From: an uncultured Lactobacillus sp.
Lineage (GTDB): Bacteria; Bacillota; Bacilli; Lactobacillales; Lactobacillaceae
Assembly: GCF_947367085.1 (NCBI RefSeq)
Contig: NZ_CANBCP010000009.1
Location: 1 to 55,723 of the forward strand
Reading direction: 5' to 3'
Length of the DNA stretch: 55,723 bases
The notes beneath the pieces were generated by a model. The model searched no databases. It saw only the letters and a list, made by a program, of their open reading frames with translations, and was not told the DNA's origin. Position numbers and translations under genes: made by a program. Numbering within the stretch: the stretch's first letter is position 1; every line of letters begins with the position of its first letter. Of this stretch, positions 12,562 through 52,040 are shown one piece after another.

Positions 12562-12567
12562 AGTATA

Positions 12568-15905: not shown

Positions 15906-15920
15906 AAGTGAAAAAGATGT

Positions 15921-15949
15921 TTGCTTATTTTGCTTAATTCTGGTATATT
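15921..15949 (+). promoter_or_regulatory. Promoter of tRNA-Leu
   Basis: TTGCTT (15921-15926) and TATATT (15944-15949) are spaced by 17 bases, ending 10 bases before the mature 5' end of the tRNA. Confidence 0.65.
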
Positions 15950-15959
15950 ATTGAAGTAC

Positions 15960-16045
15960 GCGGGCGTGGCGGAATGGCAGACGCGCAAGACTAAGGATCT
16001 TGTGATCGCTTTTAGATCGTGGAAGTTCGAGTCTTCTCGCCCGCA
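15960..16045 (+). tRNA. tRNA-Leu (anticodon AAG)
   Basis: A class II tRNA with a long variable arm. The acceptor stem GCGGGCG/CGCCCGC (15960-15966 with 16038-16044) is followed by discriminator A at 16045, with no encoded CCA. The anticodon stem CAAGA/TCTTG encloses CTAAGGA, which gives anticodon AAG (leucine, CUN box). A34 is unusual in bacteria outside tRNA-Arg(ACG) and would be expected to be edited to inosine or to read CUU only. Confidence 0.94.
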
Positions 16046-16051
16046 CTGGAT

Positions 16052-16081
16052 AAGGGAGTCGTTGATGCGGCTTCCTTTTTT
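16052..16081 (+). terminator. Terminator after tRNA-Leu
   Basis: A ten-pair hairpin with two wobble pairs (16052-16061 with 16068-16077) leads into a run of six T (16076-16081). It lies between the tRNA and the next coding gene. Confidence 0.75.
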
Positions 16082-16117
16082 GCTAGAAAAATAATGAAGG
16101 TTAAGGAGCTTGCCGAT

Positions 16118-16735: not shown

Positions 16736-16738
16736 ATA

Positions 16739-17371: not shown

Positions 17372-17400
17372 TAGCTCATCGAACAGATGAGCTATTTTTT
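17371..17400 (+). terminator. Terminator after the GH73 gene
   Basis: A perfect 10-bp stem ATAGCTCATC/GATGAGCTAT (17371-17380 with 17386-17395) is followed by six T. The stem begins at the last base of the stop codon. Confidence 0.92.
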
Positions 17401-17408
17401 GTTATAAT
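17400..17408 (+). promoter_or_regulatory. Extended -10 promoter of the pcrA operon
   Basis: TGTTATAAT (17400-17408) is an extended -10 (TGn plus perfect TATAAT) directly after the upstream terminator. No good -35 is seen at the expected distance, which is usual for extended -10 promoters. Confidence 0.6.
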
Positions 17409-17456
17409 GGATAGGTCAATTTTTACTGTTTTTTGTTTAAGTAGATGGGGAGCAAA

Positions 17457-28379: not shown

Positions 28380-28380
28380 G

Positions 28381-31436: not shown

Positions 31437-31437
31437 G

Positions 31438-32298
31438 ATGAAAAATATTATTAACCAAATATACTGGGAACAAATAAGTAGTACTTATATGGCTGGTACC
31501 AAATTAAAGAAAACAAGTGATGATAAAGTGTTTTTTGAAAATTTATTGATGACTCCGGGTAAGAAAATCATGGATTGGTCATCTAGACTTAATTATCAGG
31601 TCTTTAAAGAAGTTCCGAGTCTCCCGATCTTACAAAATGGCAAAAAATATCAAATAAAGTTGTCATTAAGTGCTAAACCGGTGAATACAGTTATTTTTTG
31701 TCTACGCTTTTTTGACTTACAGATGAGTGAAATAAGTAATATTGTTTTTTCGAGCTTGGAAAAAACTTTTACTTATCCCCAAAATGCCGTCTCTTATACA
31801 TTTGAAATTCTCAATGGGGGATGCAGTGAGATTGAATTCTCTAAGTTTCAAATTGGAAATGCTGCGTTATCTGAAAATTGCTTTGAAGATTTATACCTGA
31901 TGCCGCTAAATAAAAATGAGCTGGCCTCAAAATTAGTTTTAATATTAGTGGCAGATAGTAAGCGAAGTCGTGAAATAGAGCAAATAAAATTAGATTCTAA
32001 TATTGAAGGACAGTTTTATTTAGTATATACAAGCTGGCAAAAGCGCAATCAATTGGAGTCATCTCTCAAACAGTGGCTAAAATCGCATCCATATGATGAA
32101 TCTTTTATTTTTACTAACAAGGCAAGTCTTAATCAGAAAATAGATAATTTGAGCAGAGATAATAAGAACGTGAAGATAATTGATATGGGTGATGAATTTT
32201 CACTCAAAGATAAGAAAGCACAATGGTTTGTACCGTCTGCTATCCAAATTAATCAAAATCAATTGGTCAAAGATGCATTAAAATATTTTAAAGGGTAA
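31438..32298 (+). CDS. asp3: Accessory Sec system protein Asp3
   Basis: A 286-residue protein placed where Asp3 is expected, with the typical IYWEQISSTYMAGTKLK start and a beta-rich, carbohydrate-binding-like first half (to about residue 150). The C-terminal about 130 residues are longer than in streptococcal Asp3 (commonly about 150-300 in total). ATG 31438 is preferred over TTG 31420, which lies inside asp2. It stabilises the Asp1-Asp2-Asp3 complex. Confidence 0.85.
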   Translation: MKNIINQIYWEQISSTYMAGTKLKKTSDDKVFFENLLMTPGKKIMDWSSRLNYQVFKEVPSLPILQNGKKYQIKLSLSAKPVNTVIFCLRFFDLQMSEISNIVFSSLEKTFTYPQNAVSYTFEILNGGCSEIEFSKFQIGNAALSENCFEDLYLMPLNKNELASKLVLILVADSKRSREIEQIKLDSNIEGQFYLVYTSWQKRNQLESSLKQWLKSHPYDESFIFTNKASLNQKIDNLSRDNKNVKIIDMGDEFSLKDKKAQWFVPSAIQINQNQLVKDALKYFKG

Positions 32299-32302
32299 TA
32301 AT

Positions 32303-34669
32303 ATGTTAACTGATACGCTCAGATTAAAAAAGCCACGAAAAATTCTAAAAAAGATCAATAAGCTTGCTCCTAAAATGAGGAAGATGAGTGATGAGGAGTT
32401 AAAAAAGCAAACCCAGAGTCTTCGAGCTCAGCTTGAGAATGGAAAAGAACTCGAGGATATTTTACCTGAAGCTTTTGCTACCGTTCGGGAAGCTGATTAT
32501 CGTGTTTTAGGTTTATATCCATATGATGTTCAAGTATTGGGAGCAATTATTTTAAGTCAGGGTGCAATTGCAGAAATGAAAACTGGAGAAGGAAAAACTC
32601 TAGTTGCAACAATGCCCTTGTATTTAAATGGCTTGACGAAAAAAGGTGCGATGTTAGTTACACCGAATGGCTATTTGGCTGCTCGAGACGAACATGAATT
32701 AGCTCCAGTATATAAATTTTTAGGCTTAAGTGTGGAATTGGGCTTTTTGGATGATGGTGATGATGAAAAAAAGGCTACTCCAGAATTGAAACGTAAATGG
32801 TATAACGCAGATATTACCTATACCACTGCTTCTTCATTAGCGTTTGATTATCTGTTTAATAATTTGGCTGCAGACAAAGAAAACCAATATTTAAGACCCT
32901 TTAATTACGTTATTATTGATGAAGTTGATGAAGTGCTATTAGATGATGCTCAATCGCCATTTGTTGTTTCTTCAAGACCGACGGTTCAATCTAATTTATA
33001 TGGCTTAGCAGATCAATTTGCATGCTTGCTAGATCCGGAGAAAGATTATGAATATCGAAAAGACGATGGAATTTTTTGGTTAACTGAACATGGAATTGAG
33101 AAGGCCGAGCGCTTTTTTGGATTAAAAGATTTGTTCGATCAAAAAAGTCGCCCTGTTTATCGTCATATCATTTTGGCGTTAAGTGCTCATTTATTGATGC
33201 GTAAAGGACATGATTACTTAGTAGTTAAGGGAAAAGTTATTTTACTTGATGAAAAAAGTGGACGTCTTAAACAAGGAGTTCAGATAAGTACAGGTTTGCA
33301 TCAGGCAATTGAAGCAAAAGAAAAGGTAGACTTAACTGATATTCAAAAAACAGCCGCTTCCATTACTTTTCCAGCCTTGTTTAGTCTGTTTAATAAGGTT
33401 AATGGTATGAGCGGCACCGCTAAAGTTAATGAAGAAGAATTTTTGAATATTTATAATTTGAGGGTTATTTGTATTCCTACACATAAACCGGTTATAAGAA
33501 AAGACAAAAAGCCGCTTTTGTTTTTAACTACTCGTGATAAATTGATGTCGGCTATTGATTATGTGGTCAAGCTTCACAAAACGGGACGTCCGATTCTTTT
33601 AGTAGCGGGTTCAGTTGAAAATTCAGAAATAATTTCAGAATTACTACTTAATATCGGGATCGCTCATAATGTCTTAAATGCTTATAGTGCTGCCTATGAA
33701 GCCCAAATTGTAAAAGGAGCGGGCCAAAAAGGTGCAGTTACAATTGCAACAAATATGGCAGGACGTGGTACAGATATTAAGTTAGGTAAAGGGGTTAAAG
33801 AACTTGGTGGTTTAGCCGTAATTGGGACCGAAATGTTGCCTAAAAGAGTTGAACTACAATTAGCAGGACGTGCAGGCAGACAAGGAGATCCAGGATCTAG
33901 TCAGTTCTTTATTTCATTAGAAGATGATTTTATTTCGGGACATAATACAAGCCGCCAAAAACGTCATTATCGTAGATTAATTAAGAAGAAAAAGAAGGGC
34001 AGAAATGTCGTTGTTCTTAAATCACCAGTCTTAAAATTTAGTTTGCATATGTTGCGAGACCGTGTAGCTTCTATGCAGGAGCTCGAACGAAGTCAGACTA
34101 ATAAAAATGAGCTGATTCTTTCTTTACAGAGAAAAAATTACTATGATTTGCGTAATCGAATCATGAAACAGCAAAACTTGCAGGGCAGAATTGATCAAAT
34201 AATTGATCAGGCAATCAGCTACTATCTTGAAAAATATAAAATAACAGATCGAGATAGTCTAAAGTATTTTATTAATCAGCATGTAACTTATAATAAAGTT
34301 GTTATCCCAGATGACATTAATGGTTCAAAAGAGATAAAGCAATATTTGAAATCGTTCGTGTATCAGCTTGTTGAAGAAAAGAAAAAGATCTTAATCACCG
34401 ATAAACAGATCAATGATTTTTATCGTCAAATCATTATTTCAGCGATGGATAGTTGCTGGATCGATCAAGTTGACGTAATTGAAAAATTAAAGATATCGGC
34501 TCGTGGTTGGAATAGAGCGGGAAGGCCGCAAGAGCTGCTCCATCATCAAGCAGCATTTAAATTATATTTAAAATTCTTAGATAAGATTACTTTGGCGGTT
34601 TTCAATAATTTAATGCTTAGTCGAATCAATGTTAATGAAAAAGGACAATTAATAGTAGTGTTTAACTAA
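32303..34669 (+). CDS. secA2: Accessory Sec system translocase ATPase SecA2
   Basis: A 788-residue SecA paralogue. Walker A MKTGEGKT is at 92-99. Walker B reads DEVD (206-209) where housekeeping SecA has DEAD. GRAGRQGDPGSS marks motif VI. It lacks the C-terminal zinc-binding tail of SecA, typical for SecA2. It drives export of the serine-rich adhesin through SecY2. GGGTAATAAT is a weak ribosome site, and translation is probably coupled to asp3, four bases upstream. Confidence 0.95.
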   Translation: MLTDTLRLKKPRKILKKINKLAPKMRKMSDEELKKQTQSLRAQLENGKELEDILPEAFATVREADYRVLGLYPYDVQVLGAIILSQGAIAEMKTGEGKTLVATMPLYLNGLTKKGAMLVTPNGYLAARDEHELAPVYKFLGLSVELGFLDDGDDEKKATPELKRKWYNADITYTTASSLAFDYLFNNLAADKENQYLRPFNYVIIDEVDEVLLDDAQSPFVVSSRPTVQSNLYGLADQFACLLDPEKDYEYRKDDGIFWLTEHGIEKAERFFGLKDLFDQKSRPVYRHIILALSAHLLMRKGHDYLVVKGKVILLDEKSGRLKQGVQISTGLHQAIEAKEKVDLTDIQKTAASITFPALFSLFNKVNGMSGTAKVNEEEFLNIYNLRVICIPTHKPVIRKDKKPLLFLTTRDKLMSAIDYVVKLHKTGRPILLVAGSVENSEIISELLLNIGIAHNVLNAYSAAYEAQIVKGAGQKGAVTIATNMAGRGTDIKLGKGVKELGGLAVIGTEMLPKRVELQLAGRAGRQGDPGSSQFFISLEDDFISGHNTSRQKRHYRRLIKKKKKGRNVVVLKSPVLKFSLHMLRDRVASMQELERSQTNKNELILSLQRKNYYDLRNRIMKQQNLQGRIDQIIDQAISYYLEKYKITDRDSLKYFINQHVTYNKVVIPDDINGSKEIKQYLKSFVYQLVEEKKKILITDKQINDFYRQIIISAMDSCWIDQVDVIEKLKISARGWNRAGRPQELLHHQAAFKLYLKFLDKITLAVFNNLMLSRINVNEKGQLIVVFN

Positions 34670-34681
34670 TTGAGGTAAAAA

Positions 34682-36211
34682 ATGACAGTATATAACGTAA
34701 ACTTAGGTATAGGTTGGGCAAGTTCTGGTGTGGAATATGCTCAAAAATATCGCGATCAGAGCTTTACAGAAGCAGGGATTGAAGCCAAGTTTATTTTTTC
34801 AGATTTGATTTTAGAAAATAATATTGAAGATCTAACCGCTAACTTGGGCTTTAAAGACACGAGTATTATCTGGTTGTATAACTTTTTTACTAATATAAAA
34901 ATAGCGCCTTCTTCATATAAACTAAGTGATTTAGAAGCCAAGATTGATTTAAAAAAGTACCCTAAAAAAATAAGTGAGGACGGCAAAGAAGTTTTCTATT
35001 TAGTAAATAACGACCTTGTAATTATGGCACGCTTGAATAATCTAGACAAAAGAACCATTGACCAGGTCGTATATCGCCGTAAAAATATTATTTTAAAAAG
35101 AGAGTTTTATTCTTACACTAAATACGCTAGTGAGTATTATTTGGGGACAGCTGCGAATAATAAAGTGGCCTTTAGAGAATTCTATAATGAAGATGAATCG
35201 GTTGCTTATACTCAATATCTGAATAATGATAAGGAAACTTTTGAATTTTCGGATGGTGAGATCATCTATTCTAAAGATGAGCTTTACTTAAAGATGCTAA
35301 AAAAGCTGCGTTTTACTAAAGATGATGTTATCTTGCTAGATCGAGAAGATGAAGATGCTAATTTGATCAATGGTCAATTAATTTTTCAAAATCATGGCCA
35401 AGCAAAAATAATAGTCGTTGTCCATGCAGATCACTACGACAAGCACTTTACTAATAATGATCATATTTTGTGGAATAACTTTTATGAGTATCAATTTTCT
35501 CATGCTAAGGAAGTGGCGAGCTTTGTAGTTGCAACCCCAACTCAAAAGCAGGTATTAGAAGATCAGTTTAAAAAATACTATGGCTATATTCCGCGTGTTG
35601 ATTGTATCCCTGTTGGAAGCTTATTAGAATTAACGTATCCTAATAAGAAGCGGATGCCGTTTTCTTTGATTACTGCTTCTCGATTAGCCAAAGAAAAACA
35701 TTTAGATTGGCTAGTGAAAGCTGTAATAGCCGCAAAGAATCAAGTGCCAGAATTAAAATTAGATATTTACGGTAATGGTGGACAAGCAGCTGTTTTAAAA
35801 GAGATGATTAATAATCATCAAGCTGGTGATTATATTCACTTGATGGGGCAGAAGGATTTAACCAAAATTTATGCAAATTATGAAGCATATATTGCGGCTT
35901 CTACAAGTGAAGGCTTCGGCTTATCTCTTCTTGAAGCAATTGGATCTGGATTAGCGATGATCGGCTTTGACGTACCATATGGAAATCCTACTTTTATTGA
36001 TAATGATAAAAACGGCTTTTTATTGCCATATGATGAAGACTGGAACGACTTCAAGAAGATAGAACTTTTAACAAAGGCTATTATTAAGTTATTTAAAGAG
36101 AGTGATTTAGCCGAGTTTAGTAAAAAATCATATGAAATTGCGACACCATACCTTACTAAGAAGGTGGCCAAGCAATGGAAAAACTTACTGGAGGAAATAG
36201 TAAATGATTAA
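34682..36211 (+). CDS. gtfA: Accessory Sec glycosyltransferase GtfA (catalytic subunit)
   Basis: A 509-residue GT-B enzyme that starts O-glycosylation by adding GlcNAc to Ser/Thr of the serine-rich adhesin. The N-terminal part carries the GtfA-specific beta-meander region (about 90-210) that binds the acceptor and GtfB. The C-terminal GT4 domain has ITASRLAKEKHLDWLVKA and the E-x7-E motif EGFGLSLLE at 410-418. Ribosome site TTGAGGT. It overlaps gtfB by eight bases, so equimolar expression is expected. Confidence 0.95.
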   Translation: MTVYNVNLGIGWASSGVEYAQKYRDQSFTEAGIEAKFIFSDLILENNIEDLTANLGFKDTSIIWLYNFFTNIKIAPSSYKLSDLEAKIDLKKYPKKISEDGKEVFYLVNNDLVIMARLNNLDKRTIDQVVYRRKNIILKREFYSYTKYASEYYLGTAANNKVAFREFYNEDESVAYTQYLNNDKETFEFSDGEIIYSKDELYLKMLKKLRFTKDDVILLDREDEDANLINGQLIFQNHGQAKIIVVVHADHYDKHFTNNDHILWNNFYEYQFSHAKEVASFVVATPTQKQVLEDQFKKYYGYIPRVDCIPVGSLLELTYPNKKRMPFSLITASRLAKEKHLDWLVKAVIAAKNQVPELKLDIYGNGGQAAVLKEMINNHQAGDYIHLMGQKDLTKIYANYEAYIAASTSEGFGLSLLEAIGSGLAMIGFDVPYGNPTFIDNDKNGFLLPYDEDWNDFKKIELLTKAIIKLFKESDLAEFSKKSYEIATPYLTKKVAKQWKNLLEEIVND

Positions 36212-37532
36212 TTTATTTGAAAATCTTGATGTTGAATCGGCAGATTTTTTAAGATCGCAATTGTTTGCAAATATGAAGATTCCTTCAGTGGTTATTCATG
36301 ATAATGGCTTTTTGCCTAAAGAAGTTGATTCACCGGTTAAGTTTTATTGTAAGGTCACCGATAAAAATTCTCCATTGTACTTTGATCGATTGACAGTACC
36401 AAAGTTTTATCGAATTACGGCAACGGCTCAAAATGCGCAAGTATATGATCTTCATCAAAAAAGAGCAGATATAGTTTTTACAGCTGCTGATAATACTCGC
36501 TTGGTTAAAGAAGTACGCTGGTTAGATGACCAAGGAAATTTAAACTGGATTGATCATTATAATCGCGAAGGTAGACTCTTTGCGAAAACTTATGTCACAA
36601 ATGGTCAAGAGGTTGTGCGCAAATACTTTGATAACGAAAATAAAGAAGTTATCACCCAATATCTACTTGCCGGGGATGTCTTCCTACATTTAGAAGATCA
36701 AGAACTTCACTTTGCCAGTTTGGTTGAATTCGTTCAGTTCTTCTTAAAAGAAAGAAAATATAACCTAGATCATATTTTTTATAATACTTTGAATCAGTCG
36801 ATGCTTGTGAGCTTGGGTATTAAAGAAAATGGTACTGACACATTGTTTTGGCATGAAAAGCTCAATGATGACTTGCCAGGCAATATGAAGTATTTGGCGG
36901 CCAATAAGACTAGAACTAAGCATGTGGTATTTCAAAATTATGCTGACTGGCAGAACTGGAAAGACCGTTTGCCTAAGTCAGATAATTTAGATTTTAGGTT
37001 TCTTGGAATGATTTATCCTCATCCTCGAGGAAATAAGTTGCGTCCAGAGGTAGTTATTTTGACTAATTCTGATCAGATTGAGCATTTGACCGAAATAGTC
37101 GAATCTATGCCTAATATTACTTTTCATGTGGCTGCGATTACTGAAATGTCGGATAAGTTATTAAGCTTTAACAAGTATAATAATGTGCAATTATATCCAA
37201 ATGCGACGCCTAAACGAATTCGTCAGTTATACCAAGAATGTGATATCTATTTAGATGTTAACCATGGTAATGAGATTATGGATGCTGTTCGAGGTGCGTT
37301 TGAGCAGAACATGTTAATTATGGGATTTACGAATACAATACATAATCCTAATTTTATTGATCCAGAAAATGTTTTTGAGTTAAATGAAGTAGATAAGATG
37401 GCAAACAAAATCAGAAGTGCCTTGGAGAGCACTGATAAAATGCGTGAATTAGTAGATAAGCAACGTTTAAGTGCAGGCGATACAACAATTGAAAAATATC
37501 ACAGAGCATTTGAGGATATAACAAATGAGTAA
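36204..37532 (+). CDS. gtfB: GtfB, stabilising subunit of the adhesin O-GlcNAc transferase
   Basis: A 442-residue non-catalytic partner that binds and stabilises GtfA and recognises the partly glycosylated adhesin. It lacks the E-x7-E catalytic motif. Its C-terminal half (about 300-440) has LPKSDNLDFRFLGMIYPHPR, VVILTNSDQIEHLTEIVES and IYLDVNHGNEIMDAVRGAF. A very similar segment occurs in the middle of the three tail glycosyltransferases. It overlaps both neighbours by eight bases. Confidence 0.93.
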   Translation: MINLFENLDVESADFLRSQLFANMKIPSVVIHDNGFLPKEVDSPVKFYCKVTDKNSPLYFDRLTVPKFYRITATAQNAQVYDLHQKRADIVFTAADNTRLVKEVRWLDDQGNLNWIDHYNREGRLFAKTYVTNGQEVVRKYFDNENKEVITQYLLAGDVFLHLEDQELHFASLVEFVQFFLKERKYNLDHIFYNTLNQSMLVSLGIKENGTDTLFWHEKLNDDLPGNMKYLAANKTRTKHVVFQNYADWQNWKDRLPKSDNLDFRFLGMIYPHPRGNKLRPEVVILTNSDQIEHLTEIVESMPNITFHVAAITEMSDKLLSFNKYNNVQLYPNATPKRIRQLYQECDIYLDVNHGNEIMDAVRGAFEQNMLIMGFTNTIHNPNFIDPENVFELNEVDKMANKIRSALESTDKMRELVDKQRLSAGDTTIEKYHRAFEDITNE

Positions 37533-37898: not shown

Positions 37899-40800
37899 AT
37901 GAAAAGACTACATTTTGGAAAGAAAAGAAATTCTGAAAAAATAAAGCAATACACTGATCCTAATCGTTTGAAAGAAGATAGGGACGATCCTAAAGCATAT
38001 CTTAAGGAACTTGCCGGCTTAGCTACAATTCTTGGAGCCGGTGCTACAGGTGCAACGATTTTACCTAATGATCGTGTTTATGCGGCACAAACTTCTGTTG
38101 ATCCGAAGTCACAAATTGTGGGATCTGTATCTCATAGTACTCAAACAGGAACTTCTGATAAAGCAGCCAGCAAATCTAATGAAAAAGAATTCAGCATCAG
38201 TAATTCTGAGGCAAAGAGTATCTCTGCATCAACTTCTAAGAGTATAAAGCTTTCACAAAGTGCTTCAACTTCTTTAAGTCAGTCTGAAAGTATGCTTAGT
38301 TCTTTAAGCTTGGCCAAAAGTGAAGAAAAAGAGAGAAAATCTAATATTCAAAAATCGGCTACTTCGCATAAGTCTGTCCACAAGCAAGCTAACTCAGAAG
38401 TAGTGAAAAATAGTGAAAATAGTCAATCAACGGCAGATTCGACCATTGTGTCTAACTATGGCTCTACTTCTAATAACCTTGAAACTAAAGCTCAAGCTAG
38501 TCTTGATTTGAGCAATGATATTTCTTCGCTTGCTAAGTTACCGTTAGCTACAAATAAGATAATACATAGTAATAATTCTACCTCTAACTCTAATAATTCA
38601 AATTCTCAATTACCAATTACCTTAGCTGCTAAACTTATGACATTAGCAGCAACTACTGATACTGTCACAAAGCCAACATTTACTGGTACAGTAATGATTA
38701 AAAATGCTGATGGTAGTGCTGTTAATGAAACTACATTTAAAGATGGAGCAGTTCCTAGTTATACTTTTCGGTTGTCAACTTTTGGTGATTCGACTGTTAC
38801 TAATCCGCAATTTGTCGTTATGATACCGAAGGGATTCACAGCACAGACTAGCGATTTTTCTACTTTAACTGGCGCTGAAGGATCTAATATCTTTGGAGGA
38901 GGATCTTTTGCTGGTCCTTATAATGGTACAAGTTCTATTAAAGAACTTGGTAATTATGGGCCAAATGGCGAACAACTATTTCTCATTACTTTAACTGGCC
39001 AGACGCCTACATGGGGTAATAATTATGGTGGTCAGATTAAGTTAACTTTAGATCCTAATGCAACTGGTTCAGCTTCATATAGTACATGGGGAGCACCACT
39101 TATTTCTGAATTAGCTGATGATGCTAACTCTAATACCAATCAATATAATTCAAGTAATTATGGTGGTGGTCCATATACTTTCAAGGTAGATGGACAAGAT
39201 CTAAATGTTATTAAAAATTCTTCTGGGATTAATGGTACTCAAGGCTCAATTAGTTACATCTTAAATAACAGTAGAGTTTTACCACAATTTACAGGTACAG
39301 CTTCTTTAGGGAGTCTAAATGCTAGTGGTAATTTTGTGTCGGCTAATGATACTAATTACACTGCTGACACGCCAGCAACTGAATTACCTACCTTCAATGT
39401 TCGTTTATCGACAAGTGGAACCTCTAATGTTAATAATCCACAATTTATCGTTACAATACCTAAGGGATTCAAAGTAACAGGCAGTAACTTAATTTCATCT
39501 GATGCTGTAAGTAAGTATTTCAATGGTAATTTCAAAGGCAATAATAGTTTTAGTGCTAGTGACTACACTGTTGAATCACTTGGAACTAATAGTAATGGTG
39601 AAGAGGTTTATAGTGTAAAGTTAAACTTTAATCCATCTGAAGGTGATAATAAAGATTTAGGTTTGCAGTATAAGTTAGCTGTAGATTCAACTGCAAAAGG
39701 TAACTTCAAATATGATAGCAATACGCCGTTAGTAACTGAATTAGCTAGTGATGCTCAAAGTACAGCAGGAACTACCCAAATTACTGTTAATGGCACAACT
39801 TATGACGTTGTTAAGAGCAGCAATCCAACTAATGTAAGCTACTATGTAAATGATGCCCAACTTCCACAATTTACTGGTACTGTCGCCTTTGGTAATTTAG
39901 ATTCAACAGGTAAATTTATTCCTGGAGATAACATTAACTACACCTCTAAAACACCACCAGCAGATCTTCCAACTCTTTCTGTTCGTCTTTCTACATTGGG
40001 GAGTTCAACAGTTAATGACCCACAATTTGTTGTAATGATTCCTAAGGGATTCAGCTCAAGTGTTTCTGATTTCAATTTAATAAGTAAAAATGTAAGTAAT
40101 TATTTCGGTGGTAACGGATTCTTTAGTGGAACTAATAACTTCACCTCTAATGATTATTCCGTTGAAGATTTAGGAAAAGTTGGTCCAAATGGGGAACAGC
40201 TATTCAAGATAAAGTTAAACTTTAATCCAGGCTGGGGTGCTGCGAAGAACTTTGGTGGACAATTTAAATTAACTTTAGATTCAAAGCAAACAGGAGTTTA
40301 TAACTACGGCAGTACTGGTGCACCAATCGTATCAGAACTTGCAAGTGATGCAAGTTCATCAAAAGATAATACTTATACTTTTGATGCTAATGGTCAAAAT
40401 ATTGAAGTTGTTAAAAGTGGTACGCCGGGTGTTAATTACGCCATTAATACCAATATAGTACCAACATTTACAGGTACAGCAATTCTGGATGCGAATGGTA
40501 AAGACTATAGTGGTGACTCTGTGCCTAGCTATAGTTTCCGGTTATCAACAAGTGGAAATTCCACAGTGCAAAATCCTAAATTTATCGTAATGATTCCGGA
40601 TGGCTTTAAAGCAGATGCTAAGGATATTACCTTTCAAATGGGTAATTATCCAGGAACTGCTTCAGTCAAGGCATTAGGTAATTATGGACCAAATGGGGAG
40701 CAGATTTTTGAAGTTTCGTTAACGGGTACAACACCTAACTTTACAACTGCTTCAGTAATGGGACAGATCAAATTAAGTCCAAACTTTAATGGTGAAAATG

Positions 40801-42587
40801 GTGGTAGTCACACTTACTCTAATGCTACTGCTCCGCTTGTATCTGAAGTTTCAGATTATTCCTCAGCACCTTACGGTTCATATACTTTCCATACAGATGA
40901 CGGAGAGATCAAAGTTGCTCAAAGTCTACAAACTGTAAACTGGACTAATGCAGGCACTACTGCAGCTAATAGTAGCGCTAGTGTTACCTACGCAATTCAA
41001 GTAGGGAAAGAAAAATTACCTACTAGTGCCTATACTATTAGTAATATTCAAGCCAAACCTGTTGCTGGAGCGACGAACAATAATGCAGGATATGAACAGC
41101 TTAGTTTTTCTTTCACACCTAAAGAAACTCTCAAAGAGGGCCAATATATTGATGTAAATTTAGGATTACCAGGTGCTAACGGAATTGAATTATACGACAG
41201 TAAGTTGGGAGCCAATATTCCACTTAAAGCTCCTGATGGAACTCAGGTGGCTACTGCTTATAATATGGGAACGTATTATAGAATAGTCTTTAATTCAGCA
41301 GCTACTACTTACACTAGTGGTAATAATAACCTAACACTTACACCAATTTTACGTTGGGGAAATCCGCAATCGCAACAACCATCAATTAGCCCAAATCAAG
41401 CCAGCAGTAATACAACTGATTTAGGAAAAGTCTTTGTTTACCAATATACTGATAATGAAACTCTAAATGGACAAAAATTTGCCTATACTCCTACTAATGA
41501 TGTAACTATAAATGGCCAAACATATGCGAGTGGTCTCCATATTCAAGGACAATACGTCTATGATAAGCAATATTTGGACTACAACAAGGAAACTGGCGCT
41601 GTAATTTATTATAATAACAATAGAATTTGGAGTCCGAATAATGGTGTTTCTATAAATACCAATTGGGCAAACTCACCAGCTTTTCAGATTGCTACTAGTG
41701 GAGCAACTAATCCTGAGGATAATACAAGTACTGATTTTGATATAACGGTTACTGTAGGAAATAGTAAAGAATTTAATTATAATTGGCTTACTGACCAGGA
41801 GATGGAAGAACAGATTAAAAAACTGTATGCCTGGTATGTAAACAATAAGTTAAGTAACGAGGTTGCTGGGGACTCTACTAATAAAGTTTATTTGAATAAT
41901 GAGTTAAAACAAGATAAACAGACAACTTCTCCTATTACTGTAACCGATGAAGAAACAATTACAGATGGTAAGACCACTCGAATTTATCATATTAAAATTG
42001 CTGATCCAACAATTAGATTAAAGGGATGGATTATACCTCTAACAGTAAGTGCTTCTGGGTTTACGATGCCAGATGATATCAAGTCATATCAAGAGGATTT
42101 GGATAAGTCATCAACTGTAGATAAGAATAACTATACTAATGTTGCGAAGAGTGGGGCTGCTACAAGTAACACGGCACTGCAAGAGGCATTACAAAATACA
42201 GCTCATCCAGTTATGAGTATAAAGAATAATTCTTCTGATAAGACAGTTCCTCTACCAGATACAATTAATTGGGATACTTGGAAAGCTGGAATTGCATATG
42301 ATTCTAACGGAAATCTTTCTAACTCAAGTGATTCTGCTAATACTAGAATGGCTACACTTGTGTTTGTTGATGATACAGATCCAGCTCATCCAATTACTAT
42401 TACCACAACAACTACCAAAGGACCATCAGATGGAGAGATTGTTTTCAAGGATGCTACAACGACGTTAGAGGGACTTGAAAAACAAGGATATATCCTTGAA
42501 AAAGTTGTTGACAATCAAACTGGTGACACGATTACCCCCCCCATCTGGGGTAAATGTGTCCCAGCTAAGTCAGTATGGATATGGTAA
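37899..42587 (+). CDS. Adhesin N-terminal part: signal peptide, SRR1, binding region
   Basis: A 1562-residue product as written. Residues 1-62 are a long signal peptide with basic start and a glycine-rich core ([12 protein letters not shown]), ending near VYA, as required for SecA2/SecY2 export. Residues about 75-195 are the short serine-rich SRR1. Residues 259-1008 hold four repeats (see repeat entry). Residues about 1010-1480 are a further unassigned beta-rich region. Residues about 1484 onward start a MucBP-like module ([14 protein letters not shown]...LEKQGYIL). After the C tract the frame reads 14 foreign residues and stops. Without SRR2 and LPQTG the product cannot be wall-anchored and might be released. 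Confidence 0.9.
38673..40925 (+). repeat. Four tandem binding-region repeats of about 200 residues
   Basis: Repeats begin at residues 259, 462, 656 and 855 (bases 38673, 39282, 39864, 40461), each opening with P-x-F-T-G-T. Shared landmarks in each are RLST, a N-P-x-F or D-P-x-F followed by V/I-x-IPKGF or IPDGF, then ELG/DLG-type and E-x-x-SD blocks. The fourth is shorter (about 154 residues). They look like a tandem-duplicated ligand-binding beta-sandwich. The ligand is unknown. Confidence 0.85.
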
Positions 42588-45500
42588 GTTGGTTGATGGA
42601 CCTAATAAATTTACTGTCTATTTACGTAAGATAGATGAAACAAGTATTAGCCAGAGTATCAGTACATCTATTGAAAATAGTAGGAGTACATCTCAGTCAA
42701 TTAGTCAGGACGCATCTACTTCACACAGTGAAAGTTTATCCGCTTCTATTAGTGATGCAGTAAGCAATTCAGCAAGCCGAAGCGATAGTTTGTCAAATTC
42801 GGCAAGTCATAGTGAAAGTTTGAGTAACTCGGCAAGCTATAGTGAGAGTTTGTTCAACTCAGCAAGCTATAGTGAAAGCATATCTAACTCCGCAAGTCAC
42901 AGCGATAGTTTGTCAAATTCGACAAGTCATAGTGAAAGCTTGAGTAACTCGGCAAGTTATAGTGAGAGTTTGTCTAACTCGATAAGTCAGAGCGAGAGTT
43001 TGAGCAACTCGGTAAGTCAGAGTGAAAGCTTGAGTAACTCAGTAAGCCAAAGTGAAAGCCTGAGCAACTCAGTGAGTCAAAGCGAAAGCTTGTCTAACTC
43101 AGTGAGCCAAAGTGAAAGCTTAAGTAATTCAGTATCGCAGAGCGAAAGTTTGAGTAACTCAGTGAGCCAAAGCGAGAGTCTGTCTAACTCAGTGAGTCAA
43201 AGTGAGAGTCTGAGCAACTCAGTAAGTCAAAGCGAAAGCTTGAGTAATTCAGTCAGCCAGAGCGAAAGCTTGTCCAACTCAGTATCGCAGAGCGAGAGTC
43301 TATCTAACTCGGTAAGCCAAAGTGAGAGCTTGTCTAACTCAGTAAGTCAGAGCGAAAGTTTGAGTAACTCAGTGAGCCAAAGCGAGAGTTTGAGTAACTC
43401 AGTAAGCCAAAGCGAAAGTTTGAGTAACTCAGTAAGCCAGAGTGAGAGTTTGAGTAACTCAGTAAGTCAAAGCGAAAGTCTGTCCAACTCGATCAGCCAG
43501 AGTGAGAGCTTGAGCAACTCAGTAAGCCAAAGTGAGAGTTTAAGCAACTCGTTATCGCAGAGTGAAAGTTTGAGTAATTCGGTGAGTCAGAGTGAAAGCT
43601 TGAGTAACTCAGTAAGTCAAAGCGAAAGTCTGTCTAACTCAGTATCACAAAGTGAAAGCTTGTCCAACTCAGTGAGTCAGAGTGAGAGTTTGAGTAATTC
43701 GGTGAGCCAAAGTGAGAGCTTGTCTAACTCAGTAAGCCAAAGTGAGAGCTTGTCTAACTCAGTAAGCCAAAGTGAGAGCTTGAGTAACTCAGTATCACAA
43801 AGCGAGAGCTTAAGTAATTCAGTGAGTCAGAGTGAAAGCTTGAGTAACTCAGTAAGTCAAAGCGAGAGTTTGAGCAACTCGGTATCGCAAAGTGAGAGCC
43901 TGTCTAACTCAGTAAGTCAGAGCGAAAGCTTAAGCAACTCAGTAAGTCAAAGCGAAAGCTTGAGCAACTCGATCAGTCAGAGTGAAAGCTTAAGTAACTC
44001 ACTAAGTCAAAGTGAGAGTTTGTCCAACTCGATCAGCCAAAGCGAGAGCTTGAGTAATTCAGTATCACAAAGTGAAAGTTTGTCTAACTCGGTATCACAG
44101 AGTGAGAGCTTGAGTAACTCAGTAAGTCAAAGCGAGAGTTTGAGTAACTCAGTATCACAAAGCGAGAGTTTGAGTAACTCGGTCAGTCAGAGCGAAAGCT
44201 TGAGTAACTCGATCAGTCAAAGCGAGAGTTTGAGCAACTCGGTATCGCAAAGTGAGAGTTTATCTAACTCCGTGAGCCAGAGTGAGAGCTTAAGTAACTC
44301 GGTCAGTCAAAGTGAGAGCCTGAGCAACTCAGTGAGTCAGAGCGAAAGTTTGAGTAACTCAGTCAGCCAAAGTGAAAGCTTAAGCGACTCTATCAGTCAG
44401 AGCGAGAGTCTATCTAACTCAGTCAGCCAAAGTGAAAGTTTGAGTAACTCAGTAAGTCAAAGCGAGAGCTTAAGTAACTCAGTGAGTCAAAGTGAAAGCT
44501 TATCTAACTCAGTAAGTCAAAGCGAGAGTTTGAGTAATTCGGTAAGTCAGAGTGAAAGCTTGTCCAACTCAGTATCACAAAGTGAAAGCTTGTCTAACTC
44601 GGTAAGTCAGAGTGAGAGTTTGAGCAACTCGGTAAGCCAGAGTGAGAGCTTATCGAACTCAGTATCGCAGAGCGAAAGCTTATCGAACTCAGTATCGCAG
44701 AGCGAAAGCTTGTCCAACTCTATATCGCAGAGTGAGAGCTTGAGCAACTCAGTAAGCCATAGTGAAAGTTTAAGCAACTCAGTAAGTCAAAGCGAAAGTT
44801 TGAGTAACTCGGTAAGTCAGAGCGAAAGTTTGAGTAACTCGATCAGTCAGAGTGAAAGCTTGAGTAACTCAGTAAGCCAAAGCGAGAGTTTGAGTAACTC
44901 GGTCAGTCAAAGTGAAAGCTTGTCTAACTCAGTAAGCCAAAGTGAGAGTTTGAGGAACTCAGTAAGTCAAAGTGAGAGCTTGTCGAACTCAGTATCGCAA
45001 AGCGAGAGCTTGAGTAATTCGGTCTCCCAGAGCGAAAGCTTGAGTAACTCGGTAAGCCAGAGCGAGAGTTTATCTAACTCAGTAAGTCAAAGTGAAAGCT
45101 TGAGCAACTCGGTGAGTCAGAGTGAAAGCTTGTCCAACTCAGTAAGTCAAAGCGAAAGTTTGAGTAACTCGGTGAGTCAGAGCGAAAGTTTGAGTAACTC
45201 GGTGAGTCAGAGCGAAAGTTTGAGTAACTCGGTATCTCAGAGCGAAAGTTTGAGCAATTCTGTATCACAGAGTGAAAGCTTAAGTAACTCAGTGAGTCAA
45301 AGCGAGAGTTTGAGTAACTCAGTAAGTCAAAGTGAGAGCTTAAGTAACTCAGTATCACAAAGTGAAAGCTTGAGTAACTCGGTAAGTCAGAGCGAGAGTT
45401 TGTCTAACTCGGTAAGTCAAAGTGAAAGCTTAAGCAACTCAGTAAGCCAGAGTGAAAGCTTGTCCAACTCGGTGAGTCAAAGTGAAAGTTTAAGCAACTC

Positions 45501-48500
45501 AATAAGTCAGAGCGAAAGCCTGAGTAACTCGGTGAGTCAGAGTGAGAGCCTGTCTAACTCTGTAAGTCAGAGCGAAAGTTTGAGTAACTCCGTATCACAA
45601 AGTGAGAGTTTGAGTAATTCAGTAAGTCAAAGCGAAAGCCTAAGCAACTCAGTAAGCCAGAGCGAGAGTTTAAGCAACTCCGTATCACAAAGTGAGAGTC
45701 TGTCTAACTCGGTATCTCAGAGCGAAAGCTTAAGTAACTCAGTATCGCAGAGTGAAAGTTTGAGTAATTCAGTGAGTCAAAGCGAAAGCTTGTCCAACTC
45801 GGTGAGTCAAAGTGAGAGCCTGAGCAACTCAGTAAGTCAAAGCGAAAGTTTGAGTAATTCGGTATCTCAGAGCGAAAGTTTGAGCAATTCTGTATCACAG
45901 AGTGAAAGCTTGTCCAACTCAGTAAGTCAGAGCGAAAGCTTGAGTAACTCAGTAAGTCAAAGCGAGAGTTTAAGCAATTCAGTATCACAAAGTGAAAGTT
46001 TGAGTAACTCGGTATCACAAAGTGAGAGTTTGAGTAACTCAGTAAGCCAGAGCGAGAGCTTGAGTAACTCGATCAGTCAAAGTGAAAGCTTATCTAACTC
46101 GGTATCACAAAGTGAAAGCTTGTCTAACTCAGTAAGTCAGAGCGAAAGCTTGAGTAACTCGGTGAGCCAAAGTGAGAGTCTGTCTAACTCAGTATCACAA
46201 AGTGAAAGTTTGTCCAACTCGGTATCTCAAAGCGAGAGTCTGTCCAATTCAGTAAGTCAGAGCGAAAGCTTAAGTAACTCGATCAGTCAAAGCGAAAGCT
46301 TGAGCAATTCAGTATCACAGAGTGAAAGCTTAAGTAACTCGGTCAGTCAGAGCGAAAGCTTGAGTAATTCGGTCTCCCAGAGCGAGAGCTTGTCCAACTC
46401 CGTATCACAAAGTGAAAGTTTGTCTAACTCGGTATCACAGAGTGAAAGTCTAAGTAACTCGGTCAGTCAGAGTGAAAGCTTAAGCAACTCAGTATCGCAG
46501 AGTGAGAGTTTGAGCAACTCAGTAAGCCAAAGTGAGAGTTTGAGTAACTCAGTAAGCCAGAGTGAGAGTTTGAGTAACTCAGTAAGTCAAAGCGAAAGTC
46601 TGTCCAACTCGATCAGCCAGAGTGAGAGCTTGAGCAACTCAGTCAGCCAAAGTGAGAGTTTGAGTAACTCAGTAAGTCAAAGCGAAAGCTTAAGTAACTC
46701 AGTAAGTCAGAGCGAAAGCTTGTCTAACTCGATCAGTCAAAGCGAGAGTTTGAGCAACTCAGTAAGTCAGAGCGAAAGCTTAAGTAATTCAGTATCACAA
46801 AGTGAGAGTCTGTCTAACTCGGTATCTCAAAGCGAGAGCTTGAGTAATTCGGTATCACAGAGTGAGAGCTTGAGTAACTCAGTAAGTCAGAGTGAGAGCC
46901 TGTCTAACTCAGTAAGTCAGAGCGAAAGCTTAAGCAACTCAGTAAGTCAAAGCGAGAGCTTGAGTAACTCGGTCAGTCAAAGTGAAAGCTTAAGCAATTC
47001 AGTCAGCCAGAGTGAGAGTTTGTCCAACTCGGTATCACAAAGTGAGAGTTTGAGTAACTCAGTAAGCCAGAGCGAAAGCCTGTCTAATTCAGTGAGTCAA
47101 AGTGAAAGCTTGTCCAACTCAGTAAGTCAGAGTGAGAGCTTGAGTAATTCGGTCAGTCAAAGCGAAAGCTTATCTAACTCGATCAGCCAAAGCGAGAGCT
47201 TGTCCAACTCGGTGAGTCAGAGTGAAAGTTTGAGTAATTCGGTATCACAGAGCGAGAGCTTGTCCAACTCAGTATCGCAAAGTGAGAGCTTGAGCAACTC
47301 AGTAAGCCAAAGCGAAAGCTTGAGTAATTTAGTATCACAAAGTGAAAGTTTGTCTAACTCGGTATCACAAAGCGAGAGTTTATCTAACTCGGTCAGTCAG
47401 AGTGAAAGCTTGTCTAACTCAGTAAGCCAGAGCGAAAGTTTGAGGAACTCGGTATCGCAGAGCGAAAGCTTGAGTAACTCGATAAGCCAAAGCGAGAGTT
47501 TGAGGAACTCGGTATCGCAGAGCGAAAGCTTGAGTAACTCGATCAGCCAAAGCGAGAGTTTGAGCAACTCAGTAAGTCAGAGCGAAAGCCTGTCTAATTC
47601 AGTAAGTCAAAGCGAGAGTCTGTCTAACTCGGTGAGTCAAAGTGAAAGTTTAAGCAACTCAATAAGTCAGAGCGAAAGCCTGAGCAACTCGGTCAGTCAG
47701 AGCGAAAGCTTGTCTAACTCAGTATCGCAGAGCGAGAGTTTGTCCAATTCGGTAAGTCAAAGTGAAAGCTTAAGCAACTCAGTGAGCCAGAGCGAGAGTT
47801 TAAGCAACTCCGTTTCCCAGAGTGAAAGTTTGAGTAACTCAGTGAGTCAGAGCGAAAGCTTGTCTAACTCAGTCAGCCAAAGCGAGAGCTTGTCTAACTC
47901 GGTGAGTCAAAGCGAGAGTTTAAGTAACTCAGTAAGTCAGAGCGAAAGTTTAAGCAACTCGGTATCGCAGAGCGAGAGTTTAAGTAACTCAGTATCACAA
48001 AGCGAGAGTTTGAGTAACTCAGTAAGTCAAAGTGAGAGCTTAAGTAACTCAGTAAGCCAGAGTGAGAGCTTGAGCAACTCAGTCAGCCAAAGTGAAAGCT
48101 TAAGCAACTCTATCAGTCAGAGCGAGAGTCTATCGAACTCAGTCAGCCAAAGTGAGAGTCTGTCTAACTCAGTATCACAAAGTGAAAGCTTGTCCAACTC
48201 GGTAAGTCAAAGCGAAAGCTTGAGCAACTCGATCAGTCAGAGTGAGAGTTTGAGTAACTCAGTCAGCCAAAGCGAAAGCTTGTCTAACTCCGTCTCCCAG
48301 AGCGAGAGTTTATCTAACTCGGTCAGCCAGAGTGAAAGTTTGTCCAACTCAGTATCGCAAAGTGAGAGCTTGAGTAACTCAGTAAGTCAGAGTGAGAGTT
48401 TGAGTAACTCAGTATCGCAGAGTGAAAGTTTGTCCAACTCAGTATCGCAAAGTGAAAGCTTGAGCAACTCGGTAAGTCAAAGCGAGAGTTTGAGTAATTC

Positions 48501-49854
48501 AGTAAGTCAAAGTGAGAGCTTGTCCAACTCGGTGAGTCAGAGCGAAAGTTTGAGCAACTCAGTGAGTCAAAGCGAGAGTTTAAGTAACTCAGTAAGTCAT
48601 AGCGAAAGCTTGAGCAACTCAGTATCGCAAAGTGAGAGCTTGTCCAACTCAGTAAGTCAGAGTGAAAGCTTGAGTAATTCGGTATCGCAGAGCGAGAGTT
48701 TGAGTAATTCAGTAAGCCAAAGTGAGAGTTTGAGTAACTCAGTAAGTCAAAGTGAAAGCTTGAGCAACTCAGTAAGTCAGAGCGAGAGTTTGTCCAATTC
48801 GGTGAGTCAAAGTGAAAGCTTGTCTAACTCAGTCAGCCAAAGTGAGAGCTTGTCCAACTCAGTAAGTCATAGCGAGAGTTTGAGTAATTCGGTCAGTCAG
48901 AGTGAAAGCTTGTCCAACTCAGTAAGTCAAAGTGAGAGTTTATCTAACTCCGTCTCCCAGAGTGAAAGTTTGAGTAACTCAGTATCGCAGAGCGAAAGTT
49001 TGAGCAACTCCGTGAGCCAGAGTGAGAGTTTGAGCAACTCAGTAAGTCAAAGCGAAAGCTTGTCTAACTCAGTATCGCAAAGCGAGAGTTTGAGTAATTC
49101 AGTAAGCCAAAGTGAGAGCTTGAGTAACTCAGTATCGCAGAGTGAAAGCTTGAGCAACTCAGTAAGCCAAAGCGAAAGTTTGAGTAACTCTATATTGCAG
49201 AGTGAGAGCTTGAGTAATTCGGTATCGCAAAGTGAGAGTTTGAGTAGCTCGATCAGTCAGAGTGAAAGCTTGAGTAACTCGGTAAGTCAAAGCGAAATGA
49301 GCAACTCGATCAGTCAGAGTGAAAGCTTATCTAACTCGGTAAGTCAGAGCGAAAGCTTAAGTAATACGGAATCTCTGAGCCAAAGTGGAAGAAGATCTAC
49401 CGGTGTTCCACTGTCTACGAGTCTAGAACCGTTCCCTCTTTCAACAATTGAATCGATCTCAACATCAATTTCAATTAGTATGAGTGAAAATATCTCAGAT
49501 ATCACAAGTATGTCTAATTCATCGAGTGAAAGTGTTGTCGATAGTGGATCGAATACTACTGTTTCAAACAGTGAATCTACTTCAACTAGTCATGAACCTG
49601 TTCCTGGTACTTCAACTAATACATTGATACCATCTACTAAACCTTCAAGATCTGTAGAAAGTAGAAACGTTGTCCATAATAGACAAGCACGTCAACATGT
49701 TCGTCAGATGAGAAATAGAGCACGATACAGTAGTCATCGCAGATTGCCACAAACAGGTAGTGCTAACGAATCAGAGTTATTACTTGGAGCAATTACAACT
49801 GCTTTAGGCGGCTTGCTTGGATTTAGACGTAATAAAAAACGTCGAAAAAGATAA
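42475..49854 (+). CDS. Adhesin C-terminal part: end of MucBP-like module, SRR2, LPQTG anchor
   Basis: 2459 residues as an open frame. The ATG at 42475 has no ribosome site and lies within the upstream frame, so true expression needs the corrected tract. From the tract onward it completes the MucBP-like module ([15 protein letters not shown]...FTVYLRK), then SRR2 (Ser about half of residues), a Ser-rich linker, a basic stretch, and the sortase signal LPQTG (bases 49744-49758). The end is a hydrophobic segment and [12 protein letters not shown]2 is the expected GlcNAc carrier for GtfA/GtfB and the tail glycosyltransferases. Confidence 0.85.
42535..42550 (+). repeat. Poly-C8 tract with adjacent CCCC/GGGG inverted repeat: frameshift site
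   Basis: Eight C (42535-42542) in an AT-rich gene, with the last four able to pair with GGGG (42547-42550) around ATCT. Seven C restore the adhesin frame, eight stop at 42587, and nine stop at GGG-TAA just beyond. Homopolymer tracts of this kind undergo slipped-strand mispairing, and polymerase slippage or +1 ribosomal slippage at CCC-C are alternatives. Confidence 0.85.
42781..49290 (+). repeat. SRR2: 217 contiguous 30-base units coding for [10 protein letters not shown]-type decapeptides
   Basis: Units keep perfect 30-base register for 6510 bases. The consensus is [10 protein letters not shown]. The first units differ ([20 protein letters not shown]), and the far end is degenerate, including a 6-base-shortened unit at 49291 (SE-MSNS) and variants such as SILQ. 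The DNA varies by synonymous codons between units while peptides barely change. Rare variants in the core are I for V, L/H for V/Q, and R for the third S. Confidence 0.95.
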
Positions 49855-49971: not shown

Positions 49972-50009
49972 GTTTACTTTTGTTAGCTTTAATAAAGAGG
50001 AAATTATTG

Positions 50010-52040
50010 ATGAATATAATTGCGTTGAGTGGAAATTATGGATATTTGGATAAAATAGAAACTACGATTAAATCTATTTTATGGCATAACAAGAATGTAG
50101 AAATTCATGTGATAAATCCTGATATACCGCATGAATGGTTTATTAATCTAAATCAATATGCAAATCAATTTGGTGTTTCAATTATTGATGAAAAAATTGA
50201 TCCACAAAGATTAGCTGATATGAAACCTTCATATGCTCACATTAATCAAATGGCATATGGTAGGTTTTTAATTCCACAACTTATTAAGGATGACAAAGTA
50301 TTATATTTAGATTCAGATATTGTTGTTGACGATAATATTGAGGATATTTTTGATGTTGATCTGGGAGATAAGATGCTTTACGCAGTGCGTGATTACCATG
50401 CTACTGATCAATTTAATTCTGGCGTTATGCTAATAAATAATAAAAAATGGCGCGAAGAAGAAATAACTCAGAAGTTAATTGATATGGGAAAGCAGCATTT
50501 GCCTAATGGCGATCAAACTGTAATTAACGAGATCTTTAGAGATCAAATGGGTGATCTTGATCCTGCTTATAATTATCAAATTGGTTTTGAGAAAGATGCT
50601 TTTTGGAATAATTTTGATAGTGTATTTGCATATTTTGAAGAAGTTCAGCATCCTAAAATCATTCACTATGTTAGTGGTGATAAACCATTTAATCTTGTAT
50701 CGAGCGGAAGTATGCGAGATAAATGGTGGCATTATCGTAATTTACAGTGGTCAGATATTGTAGATAAGTATGTGAAGTTTGATAGCAGCAAGCTTGGAAA
50801 ACTTCATTTCAAAGCGCAAGCATTTTTATTTACAAGAGTAGCTGAAACACAAGATGTAGAAGAACTTATTAAAAGATTGCCAAATGTCCAATTCAATATC
50901 GCAGCATATACCCCGATGGCCTTTTTATTATTAGGATTAACAAAATACGATAATGTTCACTTGTTTCCAAGTATTATCGGCACGACTTTGACTCGCTTAA
51001 TTGACACCTGTGATCTATATTTAGACATCAATTATGGTGGTAAGGAATACCAAGTTCTTCATCGAATTACGCCGAGAAATGTTCCAATGTTTTCTTTTGA
51101 AGCTACTAAGAGCCAAAATTTAGATTATGATAATTATCATGTCTTTCAAAATGGACAAGTTGATGCTATGGCTACTGCCATCGAAGATTATATTAAGAAT
51201 AACCAAAATAAAGTAAATAAACCTTTATTCAATATTGATGTTAAAGATACAGGAGAGTCTCTTGATTTAATTGCAAAAGATCATAAATCTGTCGTGCGTT
51301 TTGGTGATGGAGAATTTGACTTGATTAATGGAAAATCTATTCCCTATCAACAATATGATGAAAATTTATCTAAGCATCTAAAAAATATTGTGTTAAGAGG
51401 AAATTATAATAATACCTTGGTATGTTTACCAGACGTTTTTAGAGATTTAGATCGATATGGCCACTATGCTCAAGGTTTCTATGAGGTATCCTTTTTCCCA
51501 GATAATGAAGCAATTCTGACTGATATTGAAAAGACAGGCAATTGGTATGGTTCTACTTTCATATCTAGACCTTATATTGATTTAATTGATAAAAGTAAAA
51601 GCCAACATTATTTTGATAAGTGGAAAGAAATATGGAATGGACACGATCTTTTAATAGTTGAAGGAAAGTTTACCCGTTCAGGAGTTGGCAATGACCTTTT
51701 TGACAATGCTAATTCAGTTGAGAGAATTATTTGTCCACCACGTGATTCTTACGCTAAAGTCAATGAAATTGAAGATGCTATTAAAGAACATGCAGCAGAT
51801 AAGCTGGTGTTATTAATGCTGGGACCAACAGCTAAAGTAATCGTAGATGATTTGCAAGATTTAGATAATCAGATCATTGATCTAGGTCATATTGATTCAG
51901 AATATGAATGGTTCAAGATGGGAGCCAAATATAAGGTTAAGTTAAAGGATAAACATACGGCTGAATTTAACTATGATGAAAATATTGAACCAATTCAAGA
52001 TGCAAAATATCAAGAAGAAATAGTAGCTAGAATTGATTAA
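50010..52040 (+). CDS. Three-domain glycosyltransferase (GT8 + GtfB-like + GT-D/DUF1792), copy 1
   Basis: 676 residues. Residues about 1-255 are a GT8 GT-A domain (DSD at 101-103; IHYVSGDKPF late in the domain). Residues about 265-400 resemble the C-terminal half of GtfB (LPNVQFNIAAYTPMAFLL, LYLDINYGG). Residues about 410-676 are a GT-D fold of the DUF1792 type with RFGDGE at 430-435 (Asp433, Glu435). DUF1792 enzymes add a later sugar on the Fap1 adhesin of Streptococcus parasanguinis, so this protein likely extends the O-GlcNAc on the adjacent adhesin with two sugars. ATG 50010 is chosen with AGAGG 9 bases upstream. The frame is open to TTG 49980. Confidence 0.88.
   Translation: MNIIALSGNYGYLDKIETTIKSILWHNKNVEIHVINPDIPHEWFINLNQYANQFGVSIIDEKIDPQRLADMKPSYAHINQMAYGRFLIPQLIKDDKVLYLDSDIVVDDNIEDIFDVDLGDKMLYAVRDYHATDQFNSGVMLINNKKWREEEITQKLIDMGKQHLPNGDQTVINEIFRDQMGDLDPAYNYQIGFEKDAFWNNFDSVFAYFEEVQHPKIIHYVSGDKPFNLVSSGSMRDKWWHYRNLQWSDIVDKYVKFDSSKLGKLHFKAQAFLFTRVAETQDVEELIKRLPNVQFNIAAYTPMAFLLLGLTKYDNVHLFPSIIGTTLTRLIDTCDLYLDINYGGKEYQVLHRITPRNVPMFSFEATKSQNLDYDNYHVFQNGQVDAMATAIEDYIKNNQNKVNKPLFNIDVKDTGESLDLIAKDHKSVVRFGDGEFDLINGKSIPYQQYDENLSKHLKNIVLRGNYNNTLVCLPDVFRDLDRYGHYAQGFYEVSFFPDNEAILTDIEKTGNWYGSTFISRPYIDLIDKSKSQHYFDKWKEIWNGHDLLIVEGKFTRSGVGNDLFDNANSVERIICPPRDSYAKVNEIEDAIKEHAADKLVLLMLGPTAKVIVDDLQDLDNQIIDLGHIDSEYEWFKMGAKYKVKLKDKHTAEFNYDENIEPIQDAKYQEEIVARID

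Follow-up and report, generated by a model that had tools for sequence, protein, structure and literature searches.

A poly-C tract parts the two halves of a serine-rich repeat adhesin in an uncultured Lactobacillus and is a probable phase-variation site

The locus studied here raises the question of why a giant surface adhesin of Lactobacillus is divided into two open frames at a run of eight C, and whether this run could act as a switch. The window, which is the whole stretch of 55,723 nucleotides that was analyzed, is contig 9 of a 110-contig, 2.0-Mb draft genome of the genus Lactobacillus (own genome, G000). A previous sequence-only reading had placed eight C exactly where the two adhesin frames part, had described both halves as intact, and had proposed that the tract turns the adhesin on or off. 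The first two points were confirmed, as the run is exactly C8 and each half is an open frame. The features of the site are:

37899..42587, + strand, N-terminal ORF of the serine-rich repeat adhesin, 1562 amino acid residues (ORF list and homologues)
42475..49854, + strand, downstream adhesin frame, 2459 amino acid residues (open frame, LPXTG anchor, PF00746)
42535..42542, + strand, C8 tract, the point where the adhesin frames part (exact run read; GGGGGGGGTAAT on the other strand)
42585..42587, + strand, TAA that ends the N-terminal frame at C8 (sequence read)

Inspected by eye, the N-terminal ORF contains a signal region, a first Ser-rich stretch, repeated domains and a last domain cut at the tract. 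The downstream frame shows the remainder of the interrupted domain, about 2190 residues of repeats and the LPXTG anchor (PF00746). The frame arithmetic of the previous reading also holds: C7 gives 3984 residues, C8 leads to the stop at 42587, and C9 gives GGG TAA just past the tract. A long G/C run inside a reading frame, a frame that depends on its length and two intact halves, as found here, are the hallmarks of a homopolymer contingency locus.

The adhesin is surrounded by genes of an intact accessory-Sec locus, all of which were assigned by NCBIfam model matches above the cut-off:

27153..28379, + strand, SecY2 (TIGR02920)
28381..29886, + strand, Asp1 (TIGR03713)
29883..31436, + strand, Asp2 (TIGR03712)
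31420..32298, + strand, Asp3 (TIGR03711)
32303..34669, + strand, SecA2 (TIGR03714)
34682..36211, + strand, GtfA (TIGR02918)
36204..37532, + strand, GtfB (TIGR02919)
49980..52040, + strand, accessory glycosyltransferase of the SP_1767 family (TIGR03728)
52079..54109, + strand, accessory glycosyltransferase of the SP_1767 family (TIGR03728)

As in a serine-rich repeat protein (SRRP), SecY2, Asp1-3, SecA2, GtfA, and GtfB (27153-37532) adjoin the adhesin, which precedes the two glycosyltransferases, and the Ser-rich repeats and LPXTG motif lie in the downstream frame, here separate from the frame of the signal part. The N terminus is long and basic, with a hydrophobic stretch (by eye); its signal region gave no Pfam match and no exact occurrence of the KxYKxGKxW form named in PMC5566788.

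The C8 run is a clear outlier in length. The window contains ten C4 runs, one C5 and one C8, which is the sole run longer than five, and the previous claim that long C runs are otherwise absent from the adhesin is correct, with a maximum of three C and four G in the rest of the gene. CCC is used in none of the 69 Pro codons of the adhesin up to 42533 and in none of the 10 from 42541, compared to 22 of 456 in the 30 other ORFs of the window. Across the whole draft genome, C/G runs of exactly six, exactly seven, and eight or nine (internal) number 17, eight, and eight, respectively, the last count being 11 places minus three at contig ends that are likely artefacts. The fall-off of shorter runs predicts about 1.5 runs of exactly seven and about 0.15 of at least eight; the excess of runs of at least eight has a Poisson probability of 5.5e-12, or 1.9e-5 without the four runs located in two prophage-like stretches. 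Poly-C/G runs were also seen at or near the ends of contigs C2, C25, C26, C35, and C61 of this genome; these are likely artefacts and were excluded from the counts, and the sequence beside the end runs of C35 and C61 is one that we take to be adapter-like.

These artefact-like contig ends speak for a sequencing or assembly error in the tract length, with a stable, in-frame tract in the actual genome, as does the report that poly-G/C is hard to sequence and that database tract lengths can be wrong (PMC9187656). The same C8 is nevertheless found in G031, a separate one-contig assembly, and the adapter-like contig ends suggest that the draft was built from short reads. Short reads rarely miscount eight bases, and since exact repeats in 42801-49500 reach at most 107 bases, they could span the repeats. 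An error of this kind is highly improbable, and there is no doubt that a long tract exists.

Homologues of the pre-tract region were found in eight of 75 genomes of the genus, counting the own genome, and in six of 395 genomes of the order, all of them within the genus and one (G011) being a short weak match. The adhesin homologue of G031, which belongs to another species of the genus, shares 56% amino acid identity and carries C8 at the same codons as the window tract and in the same wrong frame, with 1361 open codons before the run and, behind it, 1406 that end in an LPXTG anchor. G031 is the only one of the five relatives inspected with the tract, which is absent in G090, G016, G070, and G081. 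According to the alignment, the extra base is absent at the site in G090, G070, and G081; in G090, G016, and G081 the frame is open through the site, and in G090 and G016 it reaches an anchor. The G070 homologue is broken in several places and is a decayed copy. G021 (partial match) and G006 (last domain alone) were left out of this comparison. Furthermore, G016 shows two tandem adhesin genes of this type (L064:2-4624 and 5319-18089), the first cut by the end of the stretch, and the part of L064 that was read has no C/G run of six or more.

An alternative is an ordinary, recently fixed frameshift, which would make the gene a young pseudogene or the source of a stable short secreted form, with the C run as the site of the indel. 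In its favor, the two tract-bearing orthologues found, one genome for each species, have exactly C8 and no other known length; pseudo-SRRPs in adjacent ORFs are on record (PMC6973325), and the broken G070 copy is in keeping with such decay. Against it, length and codons are the same in two species despite only 67% DNA identity over the 300 matched bases, and no second break was seen in the adhesin gene of the window or of G031.

Protein-level selection beyond the tract argues further against a fixed frameshift. The 209 ten-residue units of the window repeats correspond to 186 distinct DNA units and only seven distinct peptides, and relative to the consensus their codons show 871 silent and 31 replacement differences, although these are not independent changes because repeats also spread by duplication. 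G031 shows 456 silent and 14 replacement differences in 105 units, and the intact adhesins show 154 and one (G090) and 793 and five (G016). Since the differences in the window are mostly silent, the half beyond the tract has recently been selected as protein, and the adhesin is not an old pseudogene. Replacements are somewhat more frequent in the two split copies (45/1372) than in the intact ones (6/953; Fisher 8e-6), which could mean relaxed selection, favors the fixed frameshift and counts mildly against phase variation; 31 of the 45 are V>I (18) or Q>E (13), and the addition of Q>H brings this to 36, all three changes being recurrent. Taking into account also the wider set of genes split by G/C tracts in the genus, described below, we consider a fixed frameshift unlikely.

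The tract is also spanned by a predicted secondary structure:

42520..42564, strand not assigned, imperfect hairpin with C1-C4 in the stem and C5-C8 in the loop (fold computation)

The sequence-only reading had paired the last four C with a nearby GGGG and had taken this structure as likely to promote slippage. Four C do pair with GGGG at 42547-42550, but they are the first four (42535-42538). The DNA fold of 42520-42564 has z values of -4.55 and -4.40 on the two strands, and its RNA fold (-26.1 kcal/mol) is the second most stable among 7953 windows of 56 nt, whereas the 19-base short version of the fold, taken alone, is unremarkable (z +0.29). No hairpin was predicted at the C8 tract of G031 (z +1.27), and a role of the hairpin as a general cause of slippage is therefore unsupported.

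The same structure is relevant to recoding, by which ribosomes would slip +1 on CCC-CCC, so that short and full-length protein would arise in a constant proportion from a fixed C8. A strong hairpin at the window tract, the rarity of CCC elsewhere, the two C8 tracts that require the same forward shift, and the shift-prone E. coli tRNA-Pro(UGG) on CC[C/U]-N (PMC4519876) are all consistent with it. The hairpin is not shared by G031, most other tracts of the genus consist of G and differ in length, and a strain pair described below differs at the DNA level, which together make recoding very unlikely. The draft genome has 33 tRNAs, an incomplete set, and the 22 loci scanned contain one tRNA-Pro, with anticodon CGG.

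Next to this single locus stands a survey of C/G tracts in 61 genomes of the genus that are at least 90% complete, 33 of which have runs of at least eight, at 107 places. After removal of three runs at contig ends of the own genome and merging of one place that had an identical flank, 103 tracts were left. According to labels that rest on open frames only, 62 of these have no clear frame, 25 are in frame and 16 are split, and 2040 random positions of the same loci gave 613, 1363, and 64, respectively. Thus, 16 of the 41 coding-labelled tracts part two frames, vs. 64 of 1427 random positions. G is on the coding strand in 38 of the 41; the adhesin tracts of the window and G031 are C. The genes at these tracts encode YSIRK surface proteins, PRD and HTH regulators, a DD-carboxypeptidase, methyltransferases of type IIG, type III and C5, an NlpC/P60 protein whose frame is parted within the likely signal peptide, and others without an assigned family. 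YSIRK surface proteins, methyltransferases and regulators are the usual targets of contingency loci.

In the own genome, a PRD-domain regulator is split at G8 (C16:30306, L057), the NlpC/P60 protein is split at G9 (C22:3231, L058), and an HTH regulator of contig C12, named via its relative L153, has G8 in frame. In the HTH regulator family, the tract is an in-frame G8 in two genomes and a splitting G10 in a third; in the DD-carboxypeptidase gene, it is out of frame both as the G8 of one genome and as the G9 of another.

Several further arrangements were observed during the survey. L150 contains tandem methyltransferase genes with G8 (in frame, L150:1508) and G9 (split, L150:3516) near their starts; the first of them matches type III models, and the pair is a possible phasevarion. 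Small ORFs are arrayed on contigs C13 (L068:2992-3815) and C33 (L069:2679-3795) of the own genome; they resemble one another at the N terminus (ISEIITSAGKF is an example) and have a G7-G8 tract near each 3' end, at a spacing of about 310-410 bases. These arrays sit in prophage-like stretches with matches to holin and phage head or tail families, and the two small ORFs that were tested gave no PHROG match. In contig C31 (L077:2620), a G7 run ends seven bases 5' of the ATG of an ORF that is transporter-like by eye, thereby occupying the expected position of the ribosome-binding site. Finally, two groups of non-frame tracts (L085, L087, L099, L100, L168, L176 and L091, L097, L105, L174) have similar flanks within each group, come from several species and range in length from 8 to 10.

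A difference between strains of one species was found in a type IIG restriction-modification gene of L. gasseri plasmids, which at megablast sensitivity occurs in two of 72,556 plasmid records (HL20 and VSI26 only). HL20 has G9 and two CDS (L212:5262), whereas in VSI26 the tract is G8 and a single CDS spans 1248 codons (L213:5258). Over 3907 aligned columns, the two records differ by 28 substitutions, a single 6-base gap, overhangs at the ends and the tract indel, which is the sole one-base indel of the alignment. Therefore, a frame-toggling G8/G9 difference exists within one Lactobacillus species, and it is presumably reversible.

Flanks of the tracts were compared on the G strand for 102 tracts (one masked flank dropped; L053-L060 and L084-L177), which formed 72 flank clusters at a loose setting (50% identity over 85 bases), so that hidden kinship may remain. 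The run is followed by T in 50 and A in 51 of the 72 clusters, positions +7 to +12 are C-rich, and YTRY starts at +12 or +13 in 34 of 72, compared to about 5.7 expected from G3-G5 flanks. Leave-one-out AUC values against G3, G4, and G5 flanks were 0.89, 0.89, and 0.87, respectively. No separation was found from the flanks of 12 G6 runs of the same loci (AUC 0.56, p 0.25), and these G6 runs may belong to the set as its shorter members. Among the 24 protein families with coding-labelled tracts, the motif is present in the representative of 11. The pattern GGGGGGGGTA-N9-10-YTRY gave 14 matches in 15 sampled genus genomes and none for the reversed control, a count that is no independent test because the pattern was drawn from these genomes; elsewhere in the order (380 genomes) it stayed at control level, with six matches vs. 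nine for the reversed control. The adhesin tract of G031 fits the motif exactly and is one of the 14 matches. The window tract is not among them and fits poorly, with TA present, CAGT at +13, and a score that 21% of G3-G5 flanks reach.

A G8 run folds somewhat better onto the shared flank (-5.23 kcal/mol) than onto control flanks (-3.52 kcal/mol), which makes a hairpin a simpler reading than a binding protein. We tentatively suggest that Lactobacillus might possess genus-specific hypermutable G-tract elements, composed of G8-G11 followed by TA, a stretch rich in C and, roughly a helical turn further, YTRY, at which a flank-bound factor or a flank structure would keep or destabilise the tract; this would amount to targeted slippage in a beneficial gut genus. 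If this doubtful proposal holds, such elements would sit in genes for surface proteins, methyltransferases, regulators and prophage functions, including the accessory-Sec adhesin of at least one species.

For the adhesin of the window, the C8 tract is probably a contingency (phase-variation) site, judging from its sequence and that of its relatives. The on/off role given to it by the previous reading has good comparative support from the same-site C8 of G031, the selected downstream frame, the 16 of 41 tracts that split frames and the L. gasseri pair. We infer slippage at this C8, its rate, and the outcome for the protein as follows. DNA polymerase slippage would add or remove a C and shift the frame beyond the tract. 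At C8, synthesis and export would be confined to the 1562 residues of the N-terminal part, with neither the Ser-rich stalk nor the sortase anchor, and we propose that this product would therefore be released or lost; a tract of in-frame length would give the 3984-residue anchored adhesin. Eight C is short for a slippage tract, which counts against phase variation, as do the C on the coding strand and the poor fit of the flank. In Bifidobacterium breve, a G11 tract slips strongly and G10 much less (PMC9187656), while C. jejuni tracts have been counted from seven up (PMC4965091).

In rodent lactobacilli, the accessory-Sec genes are specific to the host, and the gut fitness of L. reuteri is lowered by loss of secA2 or of the adhesin gene (PMC12188725). 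If such adhesins flip, the ability of a strain to adhere cannot be read from one sequenced genome, and some genes annotated as "pseudogenes" in lactobacilli may be in an OFF phase. According to the genus survey, a whole group of genes, among them those for DNA methyltransferases, could be of this kind, and with the shared flank motif it becomes possible to test the idea that slippage is directed to particular sites in some bacteria.

Campylobacter jejuni belongs to another phylum than Lactobacillus. Its poly-G/C loci resemble those of the window genome in being unexpected G/C runs of at least seven in switching genes of an AT-rich genome, but 29 loci are described in NCTC11168 and switching was measured there (PMC4965091). 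A search of open-licence PubMed Central titles and abstract starts found no report of G/C-tract phase variation in Lactobacillus; the nearest cases are the pili of B. breve and the srr genes of the L. casei group, both described below, and Gardnerella colony variants (PMC11287997). The kind of system is already known, and the adhesin tract and its genus-wide setting appear new within the literature searched.

The SRRPs of L. reuteri and L. johnsonii share with the window the same secretion and glycosylation locus and similar SLSNSVS-type repeats, but the excerpted texts describe no tract switch (PMC6973325, PMC12188725). The srr1 and srr2 genes of the L. casei group also encode Ser-rich adhesins of the accessory-Sec type in lactobacilli and are likewise frameshifted; their frames are broken close to the N terminus, where a dinucleotide is deleted or A5 has gained an A (PMC5566788). 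Phase variation was suggested for them, so that the previous statement that it is not known for such adhesins has to be softened; the excerpted text of that source describes no G/C tract. The sortase-dependent pilin genes of B. breve UCC2003, with G10/G11 (PMC9187656), differ in encoding a pilin instead of an accessory-Sec adhesin, in their longer tract with G on the coding strand, and in that variation was measured in B. breve only. They are, as in the window, surface genes of a Gram-positive gut commensal, the first gene being parted by its tract into a signal half and an LPXTG half, and there replication slippage fuses the two.
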